Shown here: positions 4,686 through 31,389 of the stretch, piece after piece | Position numbering within the stretch: position 1 is the first letter of the stretch | Layout: every line of letters starts with the position of its first letter | Virus record (IMG/VR): IMGVR_UViG_3300037223_000132 | Location: 1 to 46,337 of that record | Reading direction: 5' to 3' (one strand) | Origin: a virus | Length of the DNA stretch: 46,337 bases | The notes under the pieces: model-generated | What the model saw: the letters and a program-made list of their open reading frames with translations, nothing else | Told to the model about the DNA's origin: nothing | The model's database searches: none | Position numbers and translations under genes: made by a program

Positions 4686-6268
4686 GACCATCCTTTCGCC
4701 TCGGGCTGCTTGTCCTGACCCCACGAATGCCAGGCAAACGTGCCCGGCTTCGGCGCATCACTGGGCTTGTCACCATCCGGCTTGGTAATTTTATCGAGAC
4801 CCATGCCCAGCATCGCCAGCGCCGCAACCAAATCGTCATGCGCGCCCGGAAAGCTGAGCAGCTGCTTTTCGGCGTCCGCCCAGCGCGGCCAGTCGCTCGG
4901 CCAGTGCACCATGCCCATGGCCATCAACCCGCGTATGGAAACCGATCGCGCCACAAGGTCGCGCTTTTCGGCAATTGAATCGTCAATCCAAAAAAAACAT
5001 TTGGTGTCCAGCATCCGCTTGCGCAGCAACGGCAGAATGGAACCGCTGATGGCGTCGCGCGCGGCCCACCATTGCGCCGGCCGGCGCCGTTCGATAATGC
5101 GGAAAATCGCATCGCACAAAACGTCGGTCTCCATTTTTTCCCAGACGGTATCGGGCAAAATCCAGATCTCGCCGGTCGGATCCACGCCCACGATGAGCAG
5201 GCACGTGGAATCATTTTTCTCCTGGATTCGGTAAGCGTGGTCGCTCGCGACGTAGATCCGCAAATGCTTCGGCAGATCAGCCGCCAAGTAAGTTTTGAGC
5301 CACTTCTTTTTAAACCAGGTGCCCTCGGCTGGTGTCGGGTTGCACTGGTCCTGCGTATGAAAATCCGACCGCACGATGTCGGATTTGTGGTTGCGCTTGG
5401 CCAAGTAAAATTCCTGCGGAAACCGTTCCGGCCAGCAAACCGCATCCTTGGGGCGCCCCAACGGATCGCCGTCGCCCTCGCTCAGCGCCGGGATGCGAAT
5501 CCGCACAAAGCCGCAAGCGTAGCTGGCGTCGTAGTGCGGGTTGGTCGGGTCAAACAACCGGCCTTGGACGTCGTCCTCGTTTTTGCGGCTTCCGATAAGC
5601 AACTGCCACGCCTCGGCGGAGTTCATGCGTGACAAGCAATCCGCGATGTAACAACGCCACGCCGAATTGCGCTCGGCCTCGCTGTACGCCTCCTCGGCGC
5701 TTTTAAAAAAGTCATCGAAAATAATGCCGTGGCCGCCCACGCCGGCCGGAATCTGGCCACGCCCGAAAAATTGGATCTTCCCCCCGCCTTCGAGCTGAAG
5801 CCGCGAGGAGCTCTGGCTGTCCTCGCGCAGACGCGCGGCCGGAATCGCCCCAAAGGTCAGGGCGTAGCCGGGTCCGCGCAAATAGTCGCGCACATCGCGT
5901 CCGTGCTCATTGGCGAGCTCAGCGGTCGCGGTAATGATGAGCAGATCCCGTTGCGGCCAGTTGCCACAATGCCAGGGAACGAAGTTCCTGACGGCCATTT
6001 CCGTTTTGCCGTAGCGCGGAGCCGTCTCGATCTCGAGCTTGCGGATTTCCCCGCGTGCCAGGCGCATGAGGCTTTGGCCGATCAGCGCGTGGTGCGCCTT
6101 CCAGGAATACCGCGACTTGCTTACGTTCGCCGGATCAAGCGGGTCCGGCGTGTTCAGCTGAGCAAAAGCGAGCAAATCGAGCCGCGCCAAGCGCGCAGCC
6201 AGCAAGCGGGCCTGCAACTGGGCGGTGGTCAGTTGAGCAAGCAGCATGATGACGCAGAGAAAAATCAT
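4682..6268 (-). CDS. terL: Terminase large subunit (TerL)
   Basis: The 528-residue packaging motor ATPase and nuclease. Visible elements are a Walker A-like loop APRYGKT at 83-89, a Walker B GIIFDDF at 181-187, a coupling-type segment around LLIGSRKNEDD (223-233), and an RNase H-like nuclease domain with an acidic strand YVASDHAY (339-346) and a final acidic helix HDDLVAALAM (478-487). It should cut concatemeric DNA and drive it through the portal. The first ATG (6268) overlaps the small-subunit stop as ATGA; a second Met at residue 8 is an alternative. The N-terminus is unusually hydrophobic (MIFLCVIMLL), which would be consistent with the later start. The family call is secure. Confidence 0.93.
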   Translation of the reverse strand: MIFLCVIMLLAQLTTAQLQARLLAARLARLDLLAFAQLNTPDPLDPANVSKSRYSWKAHHALIGQSLMRLARGEIRKLEIETAPRYGKTEMAVRNFVPWHCGNWPQRDLLIITATAELANEHGRDVRDYLRGPGYALTFGAIPAARLREDSQSSSRLQLEGGGKIQFFGRGQIPAGVGGHGIIFDDFFKSAEEAYSEAERNSAWRCYIADCLSRMNSAEAWQLLIGSRKNEDDVQGRLFDPTNPHYDASYACGFVRIRIPALSEGDGDPLGRPKDAVCWPERFPQEFYLAKRNHKSDIVRSDFHTQDQCNPTPAEGTWFKKKWLKTYLAADLPKHLRIYVASDHAYRIQEKNDSTCLLIVGVDPTGEIWILPDTVWEKMETDVLCDAIFRIIERRRPAQWWAARDAISGSILPLLRKRMLDTKCFFWIDDSIAEKRDLVARSVSIRGLMAMGMVHWPSDWPRWADAEKQLLSFPGAHDDLVAALAMLGMGLDKITKPDGDKPSDAPKPGTFAWHSWGQDKQPEAKGWS

Positions 6269-6837
6269 TGCCGATGGAGCGAGTGTTGGATGGGAATGAC
6301 CGCGCAGGTAGGCAACGACTCGCCGCGCTTCACGAGCTCAGCCAGGAGGTCATCAACGTTCGCGTTGGTGGTCTCGATCGGGCCGCCGCCTGGTCCCGCG
6401 TGCTCGAGGCGTTGCACGTCGCGCCACTTTTCCCGCTGACGGTTTTTCAGCCAAAAAATTGCGGCCGTCGTGTCCGGCGGATAATGCTTCACCACTCGGG
6501 TTTTCTCGATTTTGCCGCCGCACACATTGATCACCACGTCCGGATGGCTGTAGCCCGTGGCGCGCTTGAAGAGCCGGTCGGACACCTGCGCGTCGGCCTC
6601 GTCCTTGCCGCTTTTTAAGGCGCGACAAAACTCCGGGTGGTCGTGCTGCCAGCGCAAAATCGTGCGTTCATCGACGGCAAAAAAGCGGGCCAGATCGGTG
6701 TTGGTGGCGCCGAGTAGAGAGTAACGATACGCCAGCGCGCACTTGGAGCGCGTGTAAACCGTCGGCCGTCCGGTCTTGATGTGTGGCTTGGCTTTGTTCA
6801 CAACTCGATCATTGGCAGCATTACGAAAAAAGTTCAA
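6265..6837 (-). CDS. terS: Terminase small subunit (TerS)
   Basis: A 190-residue DNA-recognition subunit of the packaging machine. A helix-turn-helix is visible at about 43-66 (GATNTDLARFFAVDERTILRW), followed by HPEFCRALKSGKDEAD and the segment YPPDTTAAIFWLKNRQREKW, which is typical of one widespread family of phage small terminases. The C-terminus is variable and probably contacts TerL. It lies directly upstream of TerL with an ATGA overlap, and itself starts in an ATGA overlap with a small HTH protein. It should bind the pac or cos region of the phage DNA, which cannot be located from sequence alone. Confidence 0.88.
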   Translation of the reverse strand: MNFFRNAANDRVVNKAKPHIKTGRPTVYTRSKCALAYRYSLLGATNTDLARFFAVDERTILRWQHDHPEFCRALKSGKDEADAQVSDRLFKRATGYSHPDVVINVCGGKIEKTRVVKHYPPDTTAAIFWLKNRQREKWRDVQRLEHAGPGGGPIETTNANVDDLLAELVKRGESLPTCAVIPIQHSLHRQ

Positions 6838-7069: not shown

Positions 7070-7801
7070 TTATGCGAACTCTTTCCAGATTTGCTCGGCG
7101 TACTGCGCCGGCGTGGATTTGATGCGCGCTTCAAAAATCGCGGACTTCAACTCGGCGGCCACGCGCTCGCATTTGCCGCCGTGCGACTTAATCCGGTTAA
7201 CCCATTTGCCGGCGTCGTTGGACCACTGTTCGGCCAGCAACACTTCAAGCCGATCCGCGATCGCCTGTTGGCCCTCCGTCAATTTCGCCAAAGCTTTTTC
7301 GCTTTGTCGCTTGGTCGCAGGGGTACTGAGAGGCGCGCCCTCCTGGCTTAAGTCCGACAAAGGAGGACTTAAGCCTTCTTTCTCCTTTCTACTTTCTGAC
7401 TTAAGACTTAAGTCAGACGCGCGCGCGCGCGCGTAAGGCGTTACCACAGCGTTACGGCGGAAGGCCGACACTCGTTTCCTCGTTTGTTCACGGGCTTTTT
7501 CCTCTCTTTGCATGCGCCTGTTACAGACCGTTACAATGCCCGTTACATTTTCGTTACGTTGCGTTACAACTGCCGCTCCGGAGGCCTGGAGTTCGGTCAA
7601 CGCCTGGGCGAGTTCGGCGGGCTGACAGCGGGCGAGACGAGCGAGTTGATCGTTCGTCCCGCGCAGCTGTCCGCTCTGGCCGGCCTCGTGCATAGCGCAG
7701 ATCAGATCCATCCAGATACCCCGGGCGGCGGGTGAACAAAGTGAGACCGCCGGGTCTTTCAACCAGTCACCGGGAACAAATTTCATCCAGGGAAACTTCA
7801 T
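7070..7801 (-). CDS. Replication initiator / replisome-organiser-like protein
   Basis: A 243-residue protein. The N-terminus (WMKFVPGDWLKDPAVSLCSP, ARGIWMDLICAMHEAG) matches the winged-helix start of phage replication proteins of the lambda O, DnaT or YdaU type. A variable, basic, low-complexity linker follows (about 95-160), and the C-terminal 80 residues form a helical domain (EQWSNDAGKWVNRIKSHGG) like those that recruit helicase or helicase loader. As in lambda O, repeated DNA motifs lie inside the gene, over the linker. No helicase or primase gene is seen in the window, so it would recruit host enzymes. It sits at the end of the recombination/replication module. Confidence 0.7.
   Translation of the reverse strand: MKFPWMKFVPGDWLKDPAVSLCSPAARGIWMDLICAMHEAGQSGQLRGTNDQLARLARCQPAELAQALTELQASGAAVVTQRNENVTGIVTVCNRRMQREEKAREQTRKRVSAFRRNAVVTPYARARASDLSLKSESRKEKEGLSPPLSDLSQEGAPLSTPATKRQSEKALAKLTEGQQAIADRLEVLLAEQWSNDAGKWVNRIKSHGGKCERVAAELKSAIFEARIKSTPAQYAEQIWKEFA
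7345..7567. other. Candidate replication origin inside the initiator gene
   Basis: Two perfect 11-bp inverted repeats share the core CTTAAGTC: GGCTTAAGTCC at 7345-7355 with its complement at 7365-7375, and TCTGACTTAAG at 7395-7405 with its complement at 7407-7417. Between them lies a pyrimidine tract (7376-7394), and after them an alternating CG run (7418-7432). Seven GTTAC motifs follow, starting at 7440, 7451, 7520, 7530, 7542, 7553 and 7563, the last five spaced 10-12 bp apart, about one helical turn. They fall in different codon positions, so a repeated peptide does not explain them. The pattern resembles the iterons of lambda-type origins inside the O gene. Confidence 0.55.
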
Positions 7802-15644: not shown

Positions 15645-16652
15645 ATGGTAAAAACTTACCGGCGATATTCCGAGGAGTTCCGGGCGAGCGCGGTTGCGCT
15701 CGCCGAAAAGGAGTCCATCGCCATCGCGAGCGCCAAGCTGGGAATTGCCGACAGCCTGATGCGATCATGGCGGGAACGCCAGCGTGCCGAGCAAACCGGC
15801 GACCCGCTCAGCCCTGGCTCACCGGCGCAAACCGTCACTGCGCTCAAATCAGCGACGCGCAAGCGGCGCACGATCTGGAGCGAAGCCGACGTCACAGCCA
15901 TGGGCGCGGAATGGGTAAGCCTGCGCCTGGCTGATCCACTCGAGAGCGCCACTGTCCTGGCGGAACGCGCGCAACGCAAAGTCTTTGCCGGTCGCGGCGA
16001 ATTACAACGCGATATTAACAGCATCAGCAATATTCAGCCGCTCGTGCGCGCCATTGGCAAGTTGTGGAAGGAATTGTTGGAACGACCCGCCGCGCCATCC
16101 GTCGAGCCGCCACCGCCCGCCGCGCCACCAGTCGAGCCGCTGCCTCAGATCATCGAGGTCGAGGTTGTCCGCAAAATGACGTTCGCCGAAATGCTCGCCG
16201 AGGTGGACGAACCGGCCCTGGAGGCCCTGCTGAGCGCCAAGCGTCTCGCGCGTGAAAACACGTTCCACCAGCTCCTGCAGAGCCTCGCCAGTCACAATGG
16301 CAATGGCACGCCAAAGATTGCGCCCTTCCTGGCCAGGTCGGACATTTACGAGCCGACGTCCAAGCGCCCGCGGCGCATCGCCATCGTCGGACTGCCGGCC
16401 GCCGAGCAGGCCACGCTAACGGCCGCCGTCCAGGCCGCGCAGCTCACCTGCTCGCTCCAGTTCCCCGGCGGCAAGGATAAGGACACCGTCGCCCGGTGCG
16501 ATTACGCGATCGTCTGCCGGCCGCCCGGCGCCATCAATGGCGATGGTGACCGCGCCATCGGCCAGCTGGGCCGCAACAAGGTCGCCCTGGTGGACCAGGT
16601 CGGCGCACCGGCCGTGCTGCAACGCATCCGCGATTTCCTCTCACGAGCATGA
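15645..16652 (+). CDS. HTH (transposase OrfA-like) and Rossmann-like fusion protein
   Basis: A 335-residue protein. Residues 5-45 (YRRYSEEFRASAVALAEKES, IASAKLGIADSLMRSWRER) are a homeodomain-like helix-turn-helix of the IS3 OrfA/HTH_Tnp_1 type. There is no transposase domain and no flanking inverted repeat. The middle is helical with a Pro-rich linker (about 145-165) and a conserved-looking helix MTFAEMLAEVDEPALEALLS. The last 95 residues look like a Rossmann-type beta-alpha fold (RRIAIVGLPAAEQATLTAAV, CDYAIVCRPPGAINGDGDRA, KVALVDQVGAPAVLQ), somewhat like DUF2325. A regulator that senses a ligand or partner is plausible. It lies just upstream of the tRNA-like genes. Confidence 0.6.
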   Translation: MVKTYRRYSEEFRASAVALAEKESIAIASAKLGIADSLMRSWRERQRAEQTGDPLSPGSPAQTVTALKSATRKRRTIWSEADVTAMGAEWVSLRLADPLESATVLAERAQRKVFAGRGELQRDINSISNIQPLVRAIGKLWKELLERPAAPSVEPPPPAAPPVEPLPQIIEVEVVRKMTFAEMLAEVDEPALEALLSAKRLARENTFHQLLQSLASHNGNGTPKIAPFLARSDIYEPTSKRPRRIAIVGLPAAEQATLTAAVQAAQLTCSLQFPGGKDKDTVARCDYAIVCRPPGAINGDGDRAIGQLGRNKVALVDQVGAPAVLQRIRDFLSRA

Positions 16653-20023: not shown

Positions 20024-20052
20024 GCCGGCGGTCGCCATCAGCGACCGCCGGC
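20024..20052 (+). terminator. Strong hairpin after the membrane-protein gene
   Basis: A perfect 12-bp inverted repeat, GCCGGCGGTCGC at 20024-20035 with its complement at 20041-20052 and a CATCA loop, starts 9 bases after the stop codon. It is not followed by a clear T-run (TCCAACTCC), so it is either a weak terminator or an RNA-stabilising or attenuating hairpin inside the operon. Confidence 0.5.
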
Positions 20053-22246: not shown

Positions 22247-23491
22247 ATGAAGATTGACGCAAACGAAACCATCCAAGTGAAGCGCAGCGGGGTCACTGCC
22301 TTGATCCGTCCCACACAAAAGGCTGATAAAACCTACTGGGTTGTTGATTATCGCGCCAACGGCAAGCGCAAGCTCGTGTGGCGTTCGACCGAAGAGGAGG
22401 CCAGATCGGCAGCCAGCGAAGCCTTGGACAAGATCTCCAAGGGCGAGTCCGCTGCCCTCGAACTCACCACCAGCGACCGCCAATTCTATCTTCGCGCGAT
22501 AGAAGCGCTGGCAGGCACAGGCAAGCATTTGGACGTGGCGGCCATGGAATACGCCGAGTGCCTGCGTGTCATGGGCGGCAAGGTGACGGTGCTGGAAGCA
22601 TGCCGCGAATGGATGAAGCGCAACGCGTCCATCGTCGCGACGATCAACGTTGCCGACGCCGCGGCAAAACTCCTGACGCAGATGGTTGCCGACGGCAAAA
22701 GCGTCTGGCGCATCAAGGCGATTTCCGCCGGCCTCAAGGCCATGGCTGAGCACTTTAACGGGCAGCCAGTCACCGACATCACGCCGGCGCAGATTTCCAG
22801 CTACCTGACCGGGCTCGACTTCGTAGCGCGCACCAAGAAAAATCACCGTGACGTCATCGGCTATTTCAACCGCTGGCTCTGCCTCCACAAATACCTGCCC
22901 AAAGACACTGACTGGCTCTACGGCGTCCAGGATTACGCCAAGGCGAAGGTCGGCGAAACCGCGATCTATACCCCTGACGAAATGCAGGCCATCCTAAAAG
23001 TCTGCAACGAGGACGAACTGGCCGCCATCGCCATCGGCGGTTTCACCGCCATGCGCCATTCTGAAATCTGCCGCCTCCAGTGGGAAAACATCCAACTCTC
23101 CGACAAGCCTGGCGAAAGTTGGATCGAGGTACTCGGCGGAAAAAACGAGCGTCATGGCCAACTGCGCCGCCTGGTGCCGGTCAGCGACAATCTGCGCGCC
23201 TGGCTGCGGACGTGCGTAAAACCGGCCGGCCCGGTCACCAAACTCGATTACGAGCAATCCACGAAACACTTGCCGCACCTGGTTGGCCGCGCGAAGGTCG
23301 CCTTCAAGCGCAACGCCTTCCGTCACTCCGGCATTTCCTACCGAGTGGCTCAGACCGGCGACGTCGCCCGAATCGCCGAGGAGTCCGGCAATTCCGTGGC
23401 CGTCATCCGCATGAACTACCTGCGCGTGGTCAAGCCCGATGAGGCGGCAAAATGGTTCAACGTTTACCCAGCCGATAAATCCACCCCATGA
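22247..23491 (+). CDS. int: Tyrosine-recombinase integrase
   Basis: A 414-residue protein that should integrate and excise the phage at the adjacent tRNA-Pro-type attP. Residues 1-70 look like an arm-binding beta domain (TYWVVDYRANGKRKLVWRST), 110-225 like the core-binding helices, and 240-400 like the catalytic domain. Seen are R270 in TAMRHSEICRL, K299 in LGGKNERHG, R359 in NAFRHSGISY and the Tyr nucleophile Y391 in RMNYLRVV. The usual His of HxxR is Asn356 and the next His/Trp position is Asn382 (GNSVAV). Such N-substituted forms are familiar from PVC-group integrases, so it is probably active. Its stop overlaps the next gene (ATGA). Confidence 0.88.
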   Translation: MKIDANETIQVKRSGVTALIRPTQKADKTYWVVDYRANGKRKLVWRSTEEEARSAASEALDKISKGESAALELTTSDRQFYLRAIEALAGTGKHLDVAAMEYAECLRVMGGKVTVLEACREWMKRNASIVATINVADAAAKLLTQMVADGKSVWRIKAISAGLKAMAEHFNGQPVTDITPAQISSYLTGLDFVARTKKNHRDVIGYFNRWLCLHKYLPKDTDWLYGVQDYAKAKVGETAIYTPDEMQAILKVCNEDELAAIAIGGFTAMRHSEICRLQWENIQLSDKPGESWIEVLGGKNERHGQLRRLVPVSDNLRAWLRTCVKPAGPVTKLDYEQSTKHLPHLVGRAKVAFKRNAFRHSGISYRVAQTGDVARIAEESGNSVAVIRMNYLRVVKPDEAAKWFNVYPADKSTP

Positions 23492-24144: not shown

Positions 24145-27100
24145 TTATTTCCTCAGTGCATTGAACGCCGCAAGTCGCTGCCGCTGCTCGGCTCGCGCCT
24201 GCTGGTACGTCGCCTTTTGCTGGGGTGTGAGGCTATTAAAAAACTGCGTCTCGCGAGTCTGGTTCCCGGTGAATGGCACCGTGCGGTCATAGCGCGCGGC
24301 AATCTGATCCGCTGTGCGCCCGTTCGCTTTAAGCTCGTCGTAGGCCGCCTGAGCCTGCTTGGTTGCGCCGGCATCGAGCAAGTTATCCAGACCGCGGTAT
24401 GCGCTGGGGCGCCCTCCGGAACTGTCCCGATTCTTCTGGTAGTTGACCGCCTTAGGGTCACTGCTGTTGAGGTTGAATTTCCTCGCCAGATTCCAGACAT
24501 CCCCCGTGGCGTTCTGCTTTGTCCCTTGCACTCCGAACGTTGCTGCGGCGACCTGGCCGAGTCCGGTTTGGCCCTTCTTTGCACCGCCGATAAAGCCATC
24601 CAAAGCCATCGGCGTCATCCATTCGGCTGTGTCCTTGGCTACGGTGCTAAAGGCCTTCAGCAGCGGATTGTCACTACTGAAAAGACCATCCTTGTCTTGC
24701 CCGGTGAAAGTGTCCTTACCGGTCACCGCCTCAATCCCCGTTTTCAGCGCATAACCCATCCGCCCGCTAATGAAAGGGATGCCGTGCTGATCAAACGATC
24801 CTAGCCCAAGGAGATCCCGCGCCAGGTTGGCCGCGTCGGACACGATGAATCTGGCGTGGTAGGCGCGTTTGCCGATCACGACCGAATCCCAGTTTTTGGG
24901 TTCAAAATGAGGGTCGTGGTTGTCACTGAACGTGGCGTTCAACACACGAGCCAACGCGTACACCCCCGCCGCCTGCGCGAGCAAGAAAACCCGTTGCTCT
25001 TGATTGTAGGGCTTGAATGCCTGACCGATCACTTTGGCGCGAGAGATAAGAAAGTCCGGCGCCACCATTGCCAGGCGCATCACCCCAATGGTGTTTTTGC
25101 TCGTGCCCATCAACCGCCAGTTCTGGCCGCCGAAGGCCGCGTCCATCTGGCGGCCGGTCAACTCGCCGATCTGCTCAGGGTTGAGCTTGCCGGCGTAGCG
25201 CGCCTCATTGCGCGCCAGGACCGCAAGACCGACCTTCATTTTGAGGCGGGGAATATACTCGTTGAACGTGAAGTTATTCATCCGCACCAGCGCCGCGCCC
25301 ACCCCGGGAACCTTTGCCCAGACGCCATGGTTGGAAGACAGGCCGTCCTCAAACATCTCGCGCGCGCGACCAAAGCCCAGCACCATGTTACGGTTGAGCA
25401 ACGCCTGTTTGGGATCTTGGAGGTCGAGCTGGAAATCATGCACGCTGGGCAGCACTCCGTGAAAGCTCGCATGCAGCGCCTCGGTGACCACGTGGAAGGG
25501 GCCGACGAACTTTGACGCCTTCAGGAATGATCCCAGCTGCAGCGCCCGATAAGCTCCCCCCTCGAGCATGGACCGCGTTTCGCCAGGCATCAGCTTGCGC
25601 GTCCATTTGGGCGTCTCCAGCTCGTTTTTGACGTCGTTGTAATAGTCCGGGTGAATCAGCATGTCGCCCTTGGATAGGATTGGATTGCCAGCGGAGTCCT
25701 TGCTCACAAACTTCCAGTCCTTGAGCGACGGATGATCGAGCGCGCGGTAAGGCCGACCGTCTGCGGTGACCGCATCCTTCGCGGCTGACTTTGCGTCAAC
25801 GAAAGTCGCGGTTCCTTCGCCGATACGCCCCTGTGCCGCTTTCCCGCTGATCCTGACAACCGGCGCCCCGTCCTGGGCCCGCGCCTCTTGCAGCGCGCCA
25901 ACCCAACCTCGGCTGCCCAGCGCCTTGTGAAACGCCTCGTCGTACACCGTGACCAGGTGCGCGATGTCGAGATTCTCGGGCACACCCTTGGCCATGATGC
26001 CATCAAAGTAACTCGGCGTCTGGCGCTGCAATGAAAAGAACGGGTCGCGCGTGTCGAGCGTGGCGTAGGGATTCCCCGCGTTGCCGCGGCCGCCCTGCCC
26101 TTCCGGGCCCGGAGCCTGCTCCACATCGGGCCGCGTCTTCCAGCGCTGCGGCACGCCGTAATCCTGGCGGCCGTCCTTGATGAGGCCGGTTTTCAGGGCG
26201 TCATCGAGCTTGGCGGCAAACTCGGCCTTCACCTGCAACGCAATCCGTTTTTCGTCCGGCGTCAACTTTGCCGCCGCGTCCCAAATGGGTTGGTATTCGT
26301 CCGGCACGGCGTCGCGCTGGAATTTTAGCAGACCGTCGTCCCCGTCGGCATCGAGCCAGACGGACATGGCCTTGCGCCGGACCGCCAGCGGCACCTTGTC
26401 CGTGAGCGCTTTGGCGTACTGGTAATTCGCCACCCCGGTTTGTTGGTCGTAGGCAATCCAGGATTTCTTGGCCGCCCGGTAATCGTCATCGAGGGGTGGA
26501 CGCTTCATCGTCTCCACTCCCGCTCTCCACGCCGCCTGCGCCCGCACCATGGCTTTACTGACCGTGTCCTTCATGCCGCTTACCGTCTCGGCAAAGCGTC
26601 GACCTAGCGCCAATCGCTCCGCGAGGGTGCCCTTTGGCGAATCAAATTTGTTCGCCCTCAGCCAGTCCGTCATTTTGTCGAGCGTGCGACCGGCACCCTG
26701 ATTGGAAAGCTCGGCCATTTTCGGCAACCGTCCGTCGTCCATCATCTGGCTTGTGATTCGGTCCACCATCTTTGGCGCGAGCCGGTTCGTGCGTGACAAC
26801 TCCGCGCCGGCCGCCACGGCCTGGTTGGCCAGTTGCTCGAGCCGCCTCGCCGCCGGCTCGCCGAGTTTCGCCGAGACCTCGGCCGGATTGGGGAAATCAT
26901 CCGGACTAACCGTCTTGCCCATCGGCTTGAGGATCTGGTTGGCCTCGGACAGTGCCTGGTGCTGCTTCAAGATTTGCTCGGCCACATAGTCAGGGTGGAT
27001 CGCCAACTCATCGCGCAGCGTCCGGTAGCGCGCCGCGGCTTTCGCTGCGCCTTGTTTGTAATCGGCTTGGGACTGCCCTGGCTTGGGTACGGTAGCGGCC

Positions 27101-30100
27101 TTCAAGGCGTCGTCCGCCTGATCCATTTCAGCTTTGACGTCAGCCAGTGGGCGCGGTTGGCCGCCAGAGGCAAAATGAATGTCGCCACCATCATTGACGC
27201 CAAAAATTTGTTGTGCTACGTTTCTTATAACTCCAGGTGCTCCGGAGTGCAGACCTTGCCCCGGTCTCGAAGGCGCCTGGAGCTTTTCATTTTCCACCAC
27301 TTCATGCACGTATAACCGCTGGGTGTGGGCATCACGACGCACCAGCATGAAGGCCGTTTTGGCATTCCCGCCAATCTCCACTGGCGCACCTAAAATGTAA
27401 GCATCCATTTGCGGCCCTGTCTCCCGCGAAACCAAAGCCCCGCGTTCCACCAAGTCAGGCAAAGCTGCCACTGCCGCCACCTTCGTGCGGCTCATTCCGT
27501 GCGAAAGTGAATTTTTGATGGCACGGTCGTCGATCTGTACCTGGCCAATCTCCGCATTGTCCGCCGACTGGCGCAGATGCGTTCGCGCCCAATCCACGAT
27601 TGCGGCGATGCCACCGGTTTTTGGCACTTCCTCGCCGGTAATTTTTACCGGATCGACGGCGCGCAACTTGGCTTGCAATCGCTCTGGTGTGTCCACCAGT
27701 GTTGATTTCCCCTGGTCGCCGGAGGCAGCGCGCGCCGACACATCTCCCCGCGCGCCTTGCCAGTTGTCGCGATTGCGCAGGAACTCCATGGCGGCGTCCT
27801 TGAGCTTGCCACGGGCGCTGGCTGGCAGATCCACGCCCAGCGTGCGCTTGATGACATTTCGGACGACGTCATAGAGCCGCGAGAAAACGCCCCGGTTGGC
27901 GTCAGCCTTGATCAGGCGCGCAATGGCCGCCTCTTCGCGGATAGTCGCCGGGTCGGTCGGCAGCCCTTGCGCTTGCCGCTTCTGAAACTCTGTCCGCATC
28001 TCATCAGGCGTGACCAGATCGCGGATGGCTTGCCATGCGCCCTGCACGGCCGGGTCGTGCCAGACGCCGTGAAAGCCCTCCTCGAGGATCACTTGCGCTG
28101 CCCGCTCCGGGGTGGAGATCTGCGCCGCATTGACCACGATCTTGTTGCGCCCTTCGATGCGCGCACCCCATGGCGCGGTTTCGTCGCGGACCACGCGGAT
28201 ACCATCTGGCAGCTTGTCCGTTCCCAGAAACTTGGTGATGGCGTCGGTCACCGGCTGAGTCTCCAGCCCGCGTCTTTCGCCACCGGCGAACAGGCTGCCC
28301 TGCCCGCTCTTGTCCTGGCGCGTGGTGGCGCCTTCACGTCCGCCAAACAGTTCGGCATTCGAGTCCAGGCTCGCGCCGGCAAGCTTGGCTTTGGCTTGCT
28401 CAAGCATCTGTGCTTTAGCCTCACGCGCCGCCGCTGCTGACTTCTCGTTTTTTTCGCGTGTGTTTTGGTCCGCTGCAGATTCAGGCTGGTCGAAGAAGTC
28501 GCCGGTGGCGAATTTGAATTGGCCTTGTGGATCTGCCTTGCGGCTTTGGTGCTCGTCGAGGCGCGCGGCAATTTGCTGGATGGCATCGCCGCTGCCCTGC
28601 AAACGTCGTTCCCAGGCGACTTGCAGCGGGCCATTCAGCTTGTTTTTGCTGACGGGGTACTGTTTATCGTAGCGGGCTTGCTCGCGGTTATGCTCGTCAA
28701 CGATGTTTTGCAAACCGTTGGGTTCGTCGGATCGGACCGCCTCGGCCGCGTTCAAAAGTGTCTGCCGGTATTGGTCGAGATAGGCGAGATTGCCTCGGGC
28801 GTTCGCGGCGGGTTTACCGCCCGTCGGATTATTGCCGATTGTGAGGCCTTCCCAAGGGGACGATTTGCGAGCCTTATTGATACCCGAGAGGACCGCGTCC
28901 GCGTCGGCTAGTAGCGCACTGGCAAGGTCGGTCGGCGCTTGGCCGGCTTGGCGTCCGGGCTGTTCCCGTCCAGCACCAGGCCTCGCTGCGGCTTGAGGCG
29001 GTAAGTTACTTTGCGCTTTAGCGGCTTCGGCTTCACGTTGAGAAGATACGCCCTGTTGCGTGCGTGCGTCAAGTGGTGTGGGCCGCTCCGGCTCCTCGCG
29101 CAGATAATCCCCCGCCGCGTGCTGGGTGTCACCCTTAACTATTGAGCCCTCGTCCATCCGCAAGCTGATGTTGCCATTGGCATCGCGCTCAATGCGCTGC
29201 GTGCCAAACCGGCTGCCGTCCTCGAGCGTGACACTTGTTACTGCGCCGGTGTCGTCGTGCTCGATGCCGTCCACGCGCATGCGCGTCCCGTCCAGCTTGA
29301 AGTAATCGCCCTGGGCGAGCGACTCCACCGGCACTTTCACAGTGCCATTTCCCGGCCTTGAATTGGTGCGCTTAAAATCTTCATCCTGCTGCTGCATGGT
29401 ATCGACCTGCTTCCCCTCCTTGGTCGCTTCCCGCCCGCTCTCGCGCTCGGCAAAGGCGTTAGAATATTTCGTGACCATGTCCCAAAGATCATTGGGACCA
29501 AAATTTTCACCGCGCAGCTGGCGCATAAAGTCCAGGTGATCGTCGAGCGCGCCGGCGCCGGCCTTGTTGGTGCGCTTGAAAACCTCGTTGGTGATGCCCG
29601 CTTTTTTGGCCGCGTCGTACGCCGCGCGGAATTTCTGTCCACCCACGCCGTAATTGTCCTCGTAGTTGTCCGGGAAAATCTGTTTGAGCTTGGCGTACTG
29701 GGTGCGCTCTTTTTCGGACAACACGCCACCTTGTTTGAGTTTGTTGCTCAGTCGCTGGAATTGCGCCTTGACGATACCATCGGGCAGGAAGGCGGGAATC
29801 TTGCCGAACTCGGAAGTCAGTTTAAAGAGGTCGCCATCGGCGTCTGTGAGGCCCTTGGAAAGTGGTGCCGCGCTGCGGACAGGATTTTCACCCGCCTCCG
29901 CCGTGATTGCCGGGCTGGGTTTAGCAGCCAGGGGAGCGCCTGTTTGCGCTTGGGTGCCCGGTGGGGCAGTGCCCACGGTGTCAGTTACGGGCGCGGCTGC
30001 CGCTACTGTCGCACCTTCCGGCGCGGCTGGCAACGGTTTGTTTTCCGACGGCGCTACAGGGGCACCTTCCGGCGGTGTAGCAGCCTCCTCGGGTGGCTTG

Positions 30101-31389
30101 ATCTGGTTGCCCGTCATCGCCTGCTTGATTTCATCCGCCATCGCCGCGAGGTCGCCCATGGTCACCGGCTTATCCGGCGCGGCAGCTGCGCGCTGGGCAA
30201 TCGTTGGCGCTTGCGTCTGGCCAGCATCGGCCTTCATCTGGGCAATCTGGGTTGCGACCAGGTCAACCTTCCCGTCAGGCGTAAGCACGGGCGCGACCTT
30301 GGCTGGCGGTTCATCCTCGCCGACACTTTCGGCGGTCGGGCCAAAATAGCCGTCGGCGGTTTGCTCGTATCCGGGCGGAAGTTTGGAAGCAACTGGAGCC
30401 TTTTTATTATCCGGTTGTTCCAAAGGCGGCGTCTCGGTTGCGGCTGATGGTGGCGTGGGCGCTGGCGTGGCCGGTCCTGATGGCTCCATCGCGCCTTGCG
30501 CTTGCAAAGCTTTGAGGTTGGCTAGTTGCGCAATCTTCGCATTATCGGTCGCGATAGGCTGGTAAGTCGGCAGTCCGGTCTTGGGGTCGAGCCCGGCCAG
30601 CTTTTTGCCAGTCACGGTGGGGTCGTTTTCGAGCGCCTGGATCTGCGCCGCAAGATCGGGCGCGGCTGGCGTGGCAGGTGTCGGCGTGGGCGCTGGCGTG
30701 CTGGGTGTCGTTTGACCCGTGGGCCCGGGCGGCGCAACCGGTTCACCTTCGGTCAGCGAGTGGCGCATCAAATAGGCCATCCCCGTGTTGACGCCAAGCT
30801 CCGTCGCGGCGTCGCGTATCTCCGCCGGCGTCTGCGCGGTGACCAGTTTGCCGACGGCGTCCGGTTCCGAGATGATCGCCTGTGCAAGAAAGCCTTGTTG
30901 GGCGGTCTTGGACTCGGCCGCCAGCGGCAACGTCAACACGCTTCCGGGCGTGGTAAAGCCCAGAAGCGCGCGCGTCAGGGCGGCGCTAAAACCCTGCTCC
31001 TTGGCCATTGGAAACGCCTCTTGCGGGAGAATGGACACGCCAGGCTTGAACGGCTCGTCCTCGGGCGCGAGCGGCGTCATGTTGCTGCCTTCAACCGCTT
31101 TATTCATCAGCCATGCCGCACCCGGCTCGATCACCTTTTGATTGGCGGCCGCCAGAGCGTCTTGAAGGATTCCCGGGGCCCCGCCGCGCGTGGCTGCGGT
31201 GAACTGCCAGTCGGGATTTTCGGATAAGGGCACGCTGGCGGGTAAGCCGCTGCTGTACTGGCTTGGCTGGTTGACCGGCTGCGCCAACTGCGCGGCCGTC
31301 GGAAGCCAAGGCGGCCGCTGATCTACCAGCCATGGAGGCGTGTCGTCCGCCTGCGCTTGCTCCCAGGGCGGTGTCTGTGCGTCAGGCAT
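24145..31389 (-). CDS. Very large polyvalent internal virion protein (2414 aa)
   Basis: A single uninterrupted frame, last gene of the late operon. The order is: a Pro/Thr-rich head and linkers (about 1-500), a helical domain (about 510-690), a beta-rich insert, a Gln/Ala coiled region, a zincin-like domain (ILEEGFHGVWHD near 1101-1112), an LPD3-like segment (IDDRAIKNSLSHGMSRTKVA near 1275-1400), a helical middle, and a C-terminal third with hydrophobic helices (MVLGFGRAREMFEDG, LLAQAAGVYALARVL). Such polyvalent proteins are packed in the head and injected with the DNA. The metalloprotease motif reads E-E-x-x-H where H-E-x-x-H is expected, so it may be inactive. Domain names are by resemblance only. 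Confidence 0.75.
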   Translation of the reverse strand: MPDAQTPPWEQAQADDTPPWLVDQRPPWLPTAAQLAQPVNQPSQYSSGLPASVPLSENPDWQFTAATRGGAPGILQDALAAANQKVIEPGAAWLMNKAVEGSNMTPLAPEDEPFKPGVSILPQEAFPMAKEQGFSAALTRALLGFTTPGSVLTLPLAAESKTAQQGFLAQAIISEPDAVGKLVTAQTPAEIRDAATELGVNTGMAYLMRHSLTEGEPVAPPGPTGQTTPSTPAPTPTPATPAAPDLAAQIQALENDPTVTGKKLAGLDPKTGLPTYQPIATDNAKIAQLANLKALQAQGAMEPSGPATPAPTPPSAATETPPLEQPDNKKAPVASKLPPGYEQTADGYFGPTAESVGEDEPPAKVAPVLTPDGKVDLVATQIAQMKADAGQTQAPTIAQRAAAAPDKPVTMGDLAAMADEIKQAMTGNQIKPPEEAATPPEGAPVAPSENKPLPAAPEGATVAAAAPVTDTVGTAPPGTQAQTGAPLAAKPSPAITAEAGENPVRSAAPLSKGLTDADGDLFKLTSEFGKIPAFLPDGIVKAQFQRLSNKLKQGGVLSEKERTQYAKLKQIFPDNYEDNYGVGGQKFRAAYDAAKKAGITNEVFKRTNKAGAGALDDHLDFMRQLRGENFGPNDLWDMVTKYSNAFAERESGREATKEGKQVDTMQQQDEDFKRTNSRPGNGTVKVPVESLAQGDYFKLDGTRMRVDGIEHDDTGAVTSVTLEDGSRFGTQRIERDANGNISLRMDEGSIVKGDTQHAAGDYLREEPERPTPLDARTQQGVSSQREAEAAKAQSNLPPQAAARPGAGREQPGRQAGQAPTDLASALLADADAVLSGINKARKSSPWEGLTIGNNPTGGKPAANARGNLAYLDQYRQTLLNAAEAVRSDEPNGLQNIVDEHNREQARYDKQYPVSKNKLNGPLQVAWERRLQGSGDAIQQIAARLDEHQSRKADPQGQFKFATGDFFDQPESAADQNTREKNEKSAAAAREAKAQMLEQAKAKLAGASLDSNAELFGGREGATTRQDKSGQGSLFAGGERRGLETQPVTDAITKFLGTDKLPDGIRVVRDETAPWGARIEGRNKIVVNAAQISTPERAAQVILEEGFHGVWHDPAVQGAWQAIRDLVTPDEMRTEFQKRQAQGLPTDPATIREEAAIARLIKADANRGVFSRLYDVVRNVIKRTLGVDLPASARGKLKDAAMEFLRNRDNWQGARGDVSARAASGDQGKSTLVDTPERLQAKLRAVDPVKITGEEVPKTGGIAAIVDWARTHLRQSADNAEIGQVQIDDRAIKNSLSHGMSRTKVAAVAALPDLVERGALVSRETGPQMDAYILGAPVEIGGNAKTAFMLVRRDAHTQRLYVHEVVENEKLQAPSRPGQGLHSGAPGVIRNVAQQIFGVNDGGDIHFASGGQPRPLADVKAEMDQADDALKAATVPKPGQSQADYKQGAAKAAARYRTLRDELAIHPDYVAEQILKQHQALSEANQILKPMGKTVSPDDFPNPAEVSAKLGEPAARRLEQLANQAVAAGAELSRTNRLAPKMVDRITSQMMDDGRLPKMAELSNQGAGRTLDKMTDWLRANKFDSPKGTLAERLALGRRFAETVSGMKDTVSKAMVRAQAAWRAGVETMKRPPLDDDYRAAKKSWIAYDQQTGVANYQYAKALTDKVPLAVRRKAMSVWLDADGDDGLLKFQRDAVPDEYQPIWDAAAKLTPDEKRIALQVKAEFAAKLDDALKTGLIKDGRQDYGVPQRWKTRPDVEQAPGPEGQGGRGNAGNPYATLDTRDPFFSLQRQTPSYFDGIMAKGVPENLDIAHLVTVYDEAFHKALGSRGWVGALQEARAQDGAPVVRISGKAAQGRIGEGTATFVDAKSAAKDAVTADGRPYRALDHPSLKDWKFVSKDSAGNPILSKGDMLIHPDYYNDVKNELETPKWTRKLMPGETRSMLEGGAYRALQLGSFLKASKFVGPFHVVTEALHASFHGVLPSVHDFQLDLQDPKQALLNRNMVLGFGRAREMFEDGLSSNHGVWAKVPGVGAALVRMNNFTFNEYIPRLKMKVGLAVLARNEARYAGKLNPEQIGELTGRQMDAAFGGQNWRLMGTSKNTIGVMRLAMVAPDFLISRAKVIGQAFKPYNQEQRVFLLAQAAGVYALARVLNATFSDNHDPHFEPKNWDSVVIGKRAYHARFIVSDAANLARDLLGLGSFDQHGIPFISGRMGYALKTGIEAVTGKDTFTGQDKDGLFSSDNPLLKAFSTVAKDTAEWMTPMALDGFIGGAKKGQTGLGQVAAATFGVQGTKQNATGDVWNLARKFNLNSSDPKAVNYQKNRDSSGGRPSAYRGLDNLLDAGATKQAQAAYDELKANGRTADQIAARYDRTVPFTGNQTRETQFFNSLTPQQKATYQQARAEQRQRLAAFNALRK

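Follow-up and report, generated by a model that had tools for sequence, protein, structure and literature searches.

The segment 7300-7570 of the window (the whole 46,337-base stretch analysed, which is an IMG/VR virus record) is very probably the origin from which a temperate phage replicates, located in the coding sequence of its replication initiator. Direct repeats lie within this gene and are conserved as DNA (but are absent in two relatives, L003 and L021), and computation places an easily melted tract beside them. Lambda-like phages offer known examples of iteron origins inside a gene. In the proposed mechanism, several initiator molecules would occupy the CGTTACA iterons, about one helical turn apart, contacting them via the winged helix and a basic tail. 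Their binding would lead to the opening of the adjacent purine/pyrimidine tract and CTTAAG palindromes, the linker and the C-terminal helical domain would recruit the replicative helicase or a helicase loader, and DNA synthesis would start at 7300-7570. An earlier note on this DNA had proposed an iteron origin in the initiator gene; homology, constraint on the DNA, iteron switching and arrays found by DNA search favour that proposal, while its expectations regarding GC skew, the linker site and the uniqueness of the motifs did not hold.

The window encodes an integrase (22247-23491), RecT, RusA, an exonuclease-like protein and terminase, as found with Pfam and PHROGs, and a recognisable major head protein; because of these genes the virus is classified, from its predicted gene content, as a temperate tailed phage. 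The C-terminal domain of the initiator has a match in a Limisphaerales genome, which hints at a Verrucomicrobiota host. The subset of window ORFs that was scanned yielded no recognisable gene for a helicase or a loader. An ORF of 2414 aa (24145-31389, minus strand) has zero PHROGs matches, and one of 335 aa (15645-16652, plus strand) contains a transposase-type helix-turn-helix (HTH_Tnp_1).

The initiator-like gene (7070-7801, minus strand) encodes a protein of 243 aa and was characterised by PHROGs matches, a sub-cut-off DUF1376 match and an AlphaFold model. The protein matches the primosomal family phrog_9327 (E=2e-5) and the DnaD-like helicase loader family phrog_186 (E=2e-4), and its DUF1376 (PF07120) score is 22.1 bits against a gathering cut-off of 30.1 (E=2e-4); it may be a distant DUF1376 relative at most. 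An O-like PHROG is absent among the matches up to E=1, and the protein was therefore not assigned to the lambda O family. The AlphaFold model comprises a winged helix at about residues 1-117 (mean pLDDT 87 for the N-domain modelled alone), a disordered linker at about 120-165 and a helical C-terminal domain. The latter (WxNDAGKWVNR...TTPAQYAEQIWKEF) is rare, with matches in some ten contigs and a small number of genomes. In a fold search, the N-domains of plasmid RepA initiators were among the top matches, but the similarity was weak (E 0.003-0.01, TM about 0.4-0.5).

The main iteron array (7520-7567, minus strand) consists of five cores, GTTAC on the plus and GTAAC on the minus strand, with the consensus CGTTACA, located at 7520, 7530, 7542, 7553 and 7563 with a spacing of 10-12 bp. 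It coincides with the codons for the beta-hairpin that forms the wing in the predicted winged helix (residues 77-94, 7520-7573). An iteron pair (7440-7455, minus strand), with GTTAC cores at 7440 and 7451, 11 bp apart, sits at the end of the predicted post-wing helix. The repeats are situated 230-360 bp into the coding sequence. The gene strand reads the cores as GTAAC in two different reading frames. An alternating CG run (7418-7433), conserved in the relative L004, and two perfect inverted repeats with 11-bp arms, repeat 1 (7345-7375, GGCTTAAGTCC N9 GGACTTAAGCC) and repeat 2 (7395-7417, TCTGACTTAAG A CTTAAGTCAGA), cover the predicted disordered linker. The pyrimidine tract at 7376-7396, purine-rich on the gene strand, is part of a candidate unwinding element, 7356-7415. 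All four CTTAAG copies of the window fall within 7347-7412. A CGACAAAG box is present in the loop of inverted repeat 1 (7355-7362, plus strand), and another one (7302-7309, minus strand), kept in relatives, directly precedes the C-terminal domain. The seven GTTAC motifs, the regular spacing of five of them, both perfect inverted repeats, the pyrimidine tract and the CG run are thus present as first described. The description of these motifs as lying over the low-complexity linker applies to the CG run and the palindromes, but not to the five-copy array over the wing codons or the pair in the post-wing helix.

CGTTAC forms the top non-low-complexity hexamer cluster of the window. The seven GTAAC copies of the gene compare with a mean of 0.52 under codon-usage resampling, in which seven were reached in 0 of 20,000 trials, and with a mean of 2.27 when synonymous codons are shuffled within the gene, a stricter null (P=0.0002). 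Under codon-preserving nulls, four CTTAAG copies have P <= 5e-5 and two inverted repeats P=0.0007 to 0.004. The two-frame use and the codon nulls lead to the rejection of protein repetition as the cause of the repeats, as had been argued from the reading frames. The tract 7356-7415, which adjoins the iterons, ranks by computed stability within the lowest 0.1% of all 60-mers in the window. A minimum of GC skew had been expected at the array and was located instead at 28,446; because the skew changes with gene orientation it is uninformative here, and was discarded as an origin marker. The search for perfect inverted repeats over the whole 46 kb (arms of at least 11, loop of at most 12) returned three, two of them being repeats 1 and 2; the third (20024-20052, GCCGGCGGTCGCCATCAGCGACCGCCGGC) lies between two plus-strand ORFs in a terminator-like position.

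The closest comparison is provided by L004, whose initiator sequence begins at the last GTAAC and is 75% identical in the portion available. Over the stretch comprising this GTAAC, the CG run and the two palindromes, a synonymous difference is seen in 2 of 31 same-residue codons; for the C-terminal part the figure is 24 of 59 (Fisher P=5e-4). Synonymous sites over these elements are thus nearly frozen. The outer pair of inverted repeat 1 is altered on both sides in L004. The CGACAAAG word before the C-terminal domain is in one frame in the window, L003 and L004, and in another in L005, L006, L014 and L022; its persistence in more than one frame makes it look conserved as DNA. Among relatives with the same N-domain, GTAACG is repeated in L005, L022, L024 and L042, and GTCACG in L025. 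No clear array was found in L003 (47% identical) or L021 despite the shared N-domain, which weighs against strict conservation and goes part of the way towards the case that the earlier note named as refuting its proposal, a protein kept in relatives and the DNA motifs lost. Other same-N-domain relatives, such as L041, L055 and L059, contain different words at the same place (repeated CCAGAA/AGCCAG, GGTTAACCCC-like), perhaps further iteron classes.

Viral contigs were also searched at the DNA level only, with the pattern GTAACGN4TGTAACGN4TGTAACG, which matched 31 contigs, as compared with two for a scrambled word of equal make-up. Seven of these arrays fall within an ORF of 240 aa or more, around residues 119-181, and all seven products are replication initiators, replisome organisers, primosomal or DnaT/DnaD-like proteins, the initiators belonging to several families. 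The long ORF next to the array of L111 has its start past the array. Many further GTAACG arrays lie outside long ORFs, for example the GTTAC arrays of L101 and L110, built as an 11-bp tandem of GTAACGTTACA, with other such loci within L102-L131; arrays of this kind are possibly intergenic origins or operators of other viruses. A scan for relatives of the N-domain of L119/L107 returned the query alone.

The motif set had been thought to match none known, but GTTAC arrays recur in cultured phages. By the within-gene codon shuffle, GTTAC/GTAAC is enriched in ydaU of the Rac prophage (L152:989-1777; eight copies, P=0.0045) and in the initiators of phages SM1 (seven, P=0.03), phiEf11 (nine, P=0.003), TL-2011b (six), CP2 (five), VW-6S (five) and Sazerac (ten), while in 13 other named phages the initiator copies were not above expectation by the same shuffle. 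Five of the eight ydaU copies are clustered, with a purine-rich stretch after them; the arrays of TL-2011b, SM1 and phiEf11 are likewise succeeded by a stretch rich in purines or in A+T. Of 106 initiators, only 27 gave a significant result in a generic repeated-hexamer test, leaving a universal iteron rule unsupported. A search of one literature collection retrieved no paper joining GTTAC, phage and origin of replication, and for CGTTACA with iterons only two papers, both on unrelated topics as judged by title. The Rac prophage of E. coli K-12 is reported to have an origin, oriJ, that is active but usually kept repressed (PMC3945230). The ydaU array, located upstream of ydaV (annotated dnaC), possibly corresponds to oriJ, and is testable in E. 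coli K-12.

Repressors often contain winged helices, and the repeats may instead form an operator at which the winged-helix protein controls its own gene or operon, with no origin involved. The majority of the fold matches are indeed transcription regulators, and the numerous GTAACG arrays of other contigs outside long ORFs would suit such a role. However, this explanation is unlikely in view of the position of the array deep within a coding sequence and next to an unusually unstable tract, and of the homologues, which are replication proteins; in named phages, genes for a DnaC-like loader or a helicase come after the related initiators.

The array may also be an origin element in which GTTAC is read by a host protein rather than by the phage initiator, as the association of GTTAC arrays with several different initiator families, and their occurrence outside long ORFs, could suggest. 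Variation among relatives makes this quite improbable. Near-identical initiators are encoded in fifteen contigs, nine with five GTAAC copies and six with three GTAAT copies, and the two words are mixed in none; the groups comprise L039-L050 (GTAACG) versus L028-L036 (GTAATG). The L036 and L044-type proteins match near-totally through the winged helix, L036 combining a GTAATG array with the tail DRVLKF where the L044-type protein has ERILRW. The iteron type and the initiator's own tail thus switch together. In the remoter relatives the C-terminal domain is kept, and the N-domain and the repeated word change together, the words being GTGACG (L007), CAACC (L006 and L017) and TGTTACA (L009). The GTAACG/GTAATG switch shows the pattern expected if an iteron and its reader change together; its origin is explained equally well by recombination in which the array was transferred along with the neighbouring tail. 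The GTAACG/GTAATG pair represents a natural experiment on the joint change of initiator and origin.

If the phage initiator reads the iterons, the tail of the post-wing helix, R110-R115 (RVSAFR, codons 7457-7474, minus strand), is the candidate reader, as suggested by its association with arrays and by the tail switch. Among 106 non-redundant initiators, at least four GTTAC/GTAAC per 200 bp were found in 16 of 25 with an R[VIQ]xx[HYFWI][RK] tail versus 5 of 81 without it (Fisher P=7e-9, a value that ignores kinship and refers to a pattern partly formed on the same data). The link between GTTAC arrays and tails of the form RVxx[HYF][RK] behind the winged helix is thus a lead, not a result. Clear exceptions are Lactococcus phage 50101, Streptococcus phage Spy7 and Leuconostoc phage phiMH1, which have the tail (EADR[IV]xAYR) and no GTTAC arrays. 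The refined tail [STN]xxR[VIQ]xx[HYFWI][RK] was built on the set holding these exceptions; a fresh Verrucomicrobiota set contained zero members with it, and the sole array of that set (L183) goes with the tail RQRRYR. It is conceivable, if somewhat doubtful, that CGTTACA is an origin word common to several dissimilar winged-helix initiator families in distant hosts and is read by the refined tail. If so, small tail changes would accompany the re-coding of all iterons together, and therefore the position and specificity of an origin could be predicted from sequence; if confirmed, the iteron word and the tail would permit origin prediction in many phages and prophages with unmapped origins.

A packaging (pac/cos) site, with the terminase acting on the repeats and palindromes, is very unlikely as an explanation of the array. 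It would be consistent with the location of terS downstream of the initiator gene, both in the window (6265-6837) and in L004, and with the palindromes, known from these two phages only. The L024 locus, with nine GTTAC/GTAAC copies, has a helicase gene before it, an endolysin gene after it and no terminase seen beside it; this context, like that of the Rac array ahead of ydaV, weakens the packaging explanation. The palindromes by themselves could be a packaging element. The core of inverted repeat 2 recurs in one other viral contig of the collection, that of L004, so that the palindromes appear to be lineage-specific, and repeat 2 was rejected as a general element. Least likely of all is a by-product of the protein, in which conserved V-T and R-N residues and the low complexity of the linker create the DNA repeats: VT and N residues do recur in the proteins and the within-gene shuffle already expects 2.3 GTAAC, but the copies occupy two reading frames (P=0.0002 or less), synonymous sites are frozen relative to L004, and the array shifts between wing and linker among relatives, L005 retaining the wing protein sequence with GTAAC absent there.

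As an origin, the segment has an organisation that is already known, and differs in its initiator family, its iteron word, the location of the array over wing codons and the lineage-specific double palindrome; its working mode is most likely similar to that of ori-lambda, with another initiator family and another iteron. In lambda, the iterons are located in the middle of the O gene and adjoin an AT-rich tract, and in phage P27 silent iteron changes abolished plasmid replication (PMC7466680). The window shares with ori-lambda, including the Stx phages P27 and 933W, the iterons within the initiator gene beside an easily melted tract. Unlike ori-lambda, its initiator belongs to another family, with no O-like match, the iterons have a short CGTTAC core at 10-12 bp steps, the main array is over wing codons rather than the linker, and an extra double palindrome is present. 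The RepA_N initiators of staphylococcal plasmids and of the V. cholerae PLE satellites may resemble the window protein in the winged helix predicted for it, and share with it the covariation of N-domain and iterons with the C-domain kept, as described for PLE RepA, the iterons of which are semi-palindromic repeats of about 30 bp (PMC8263062); however, the fold match is weak, as given above, and no sequence match was found. N-terminal homology links the window protein to DUF1376/primosomal (phrog_9327, phrog_3992) and DnaD-like/Phage_rep_org_N proteins, among which Rac ydaU, SM1 and phiEf11 have GTTAC arrays at the corresponding place, but the window protein differs from this group in its rare C-terminal domain and in its Pfam score under the gathering cut-off.
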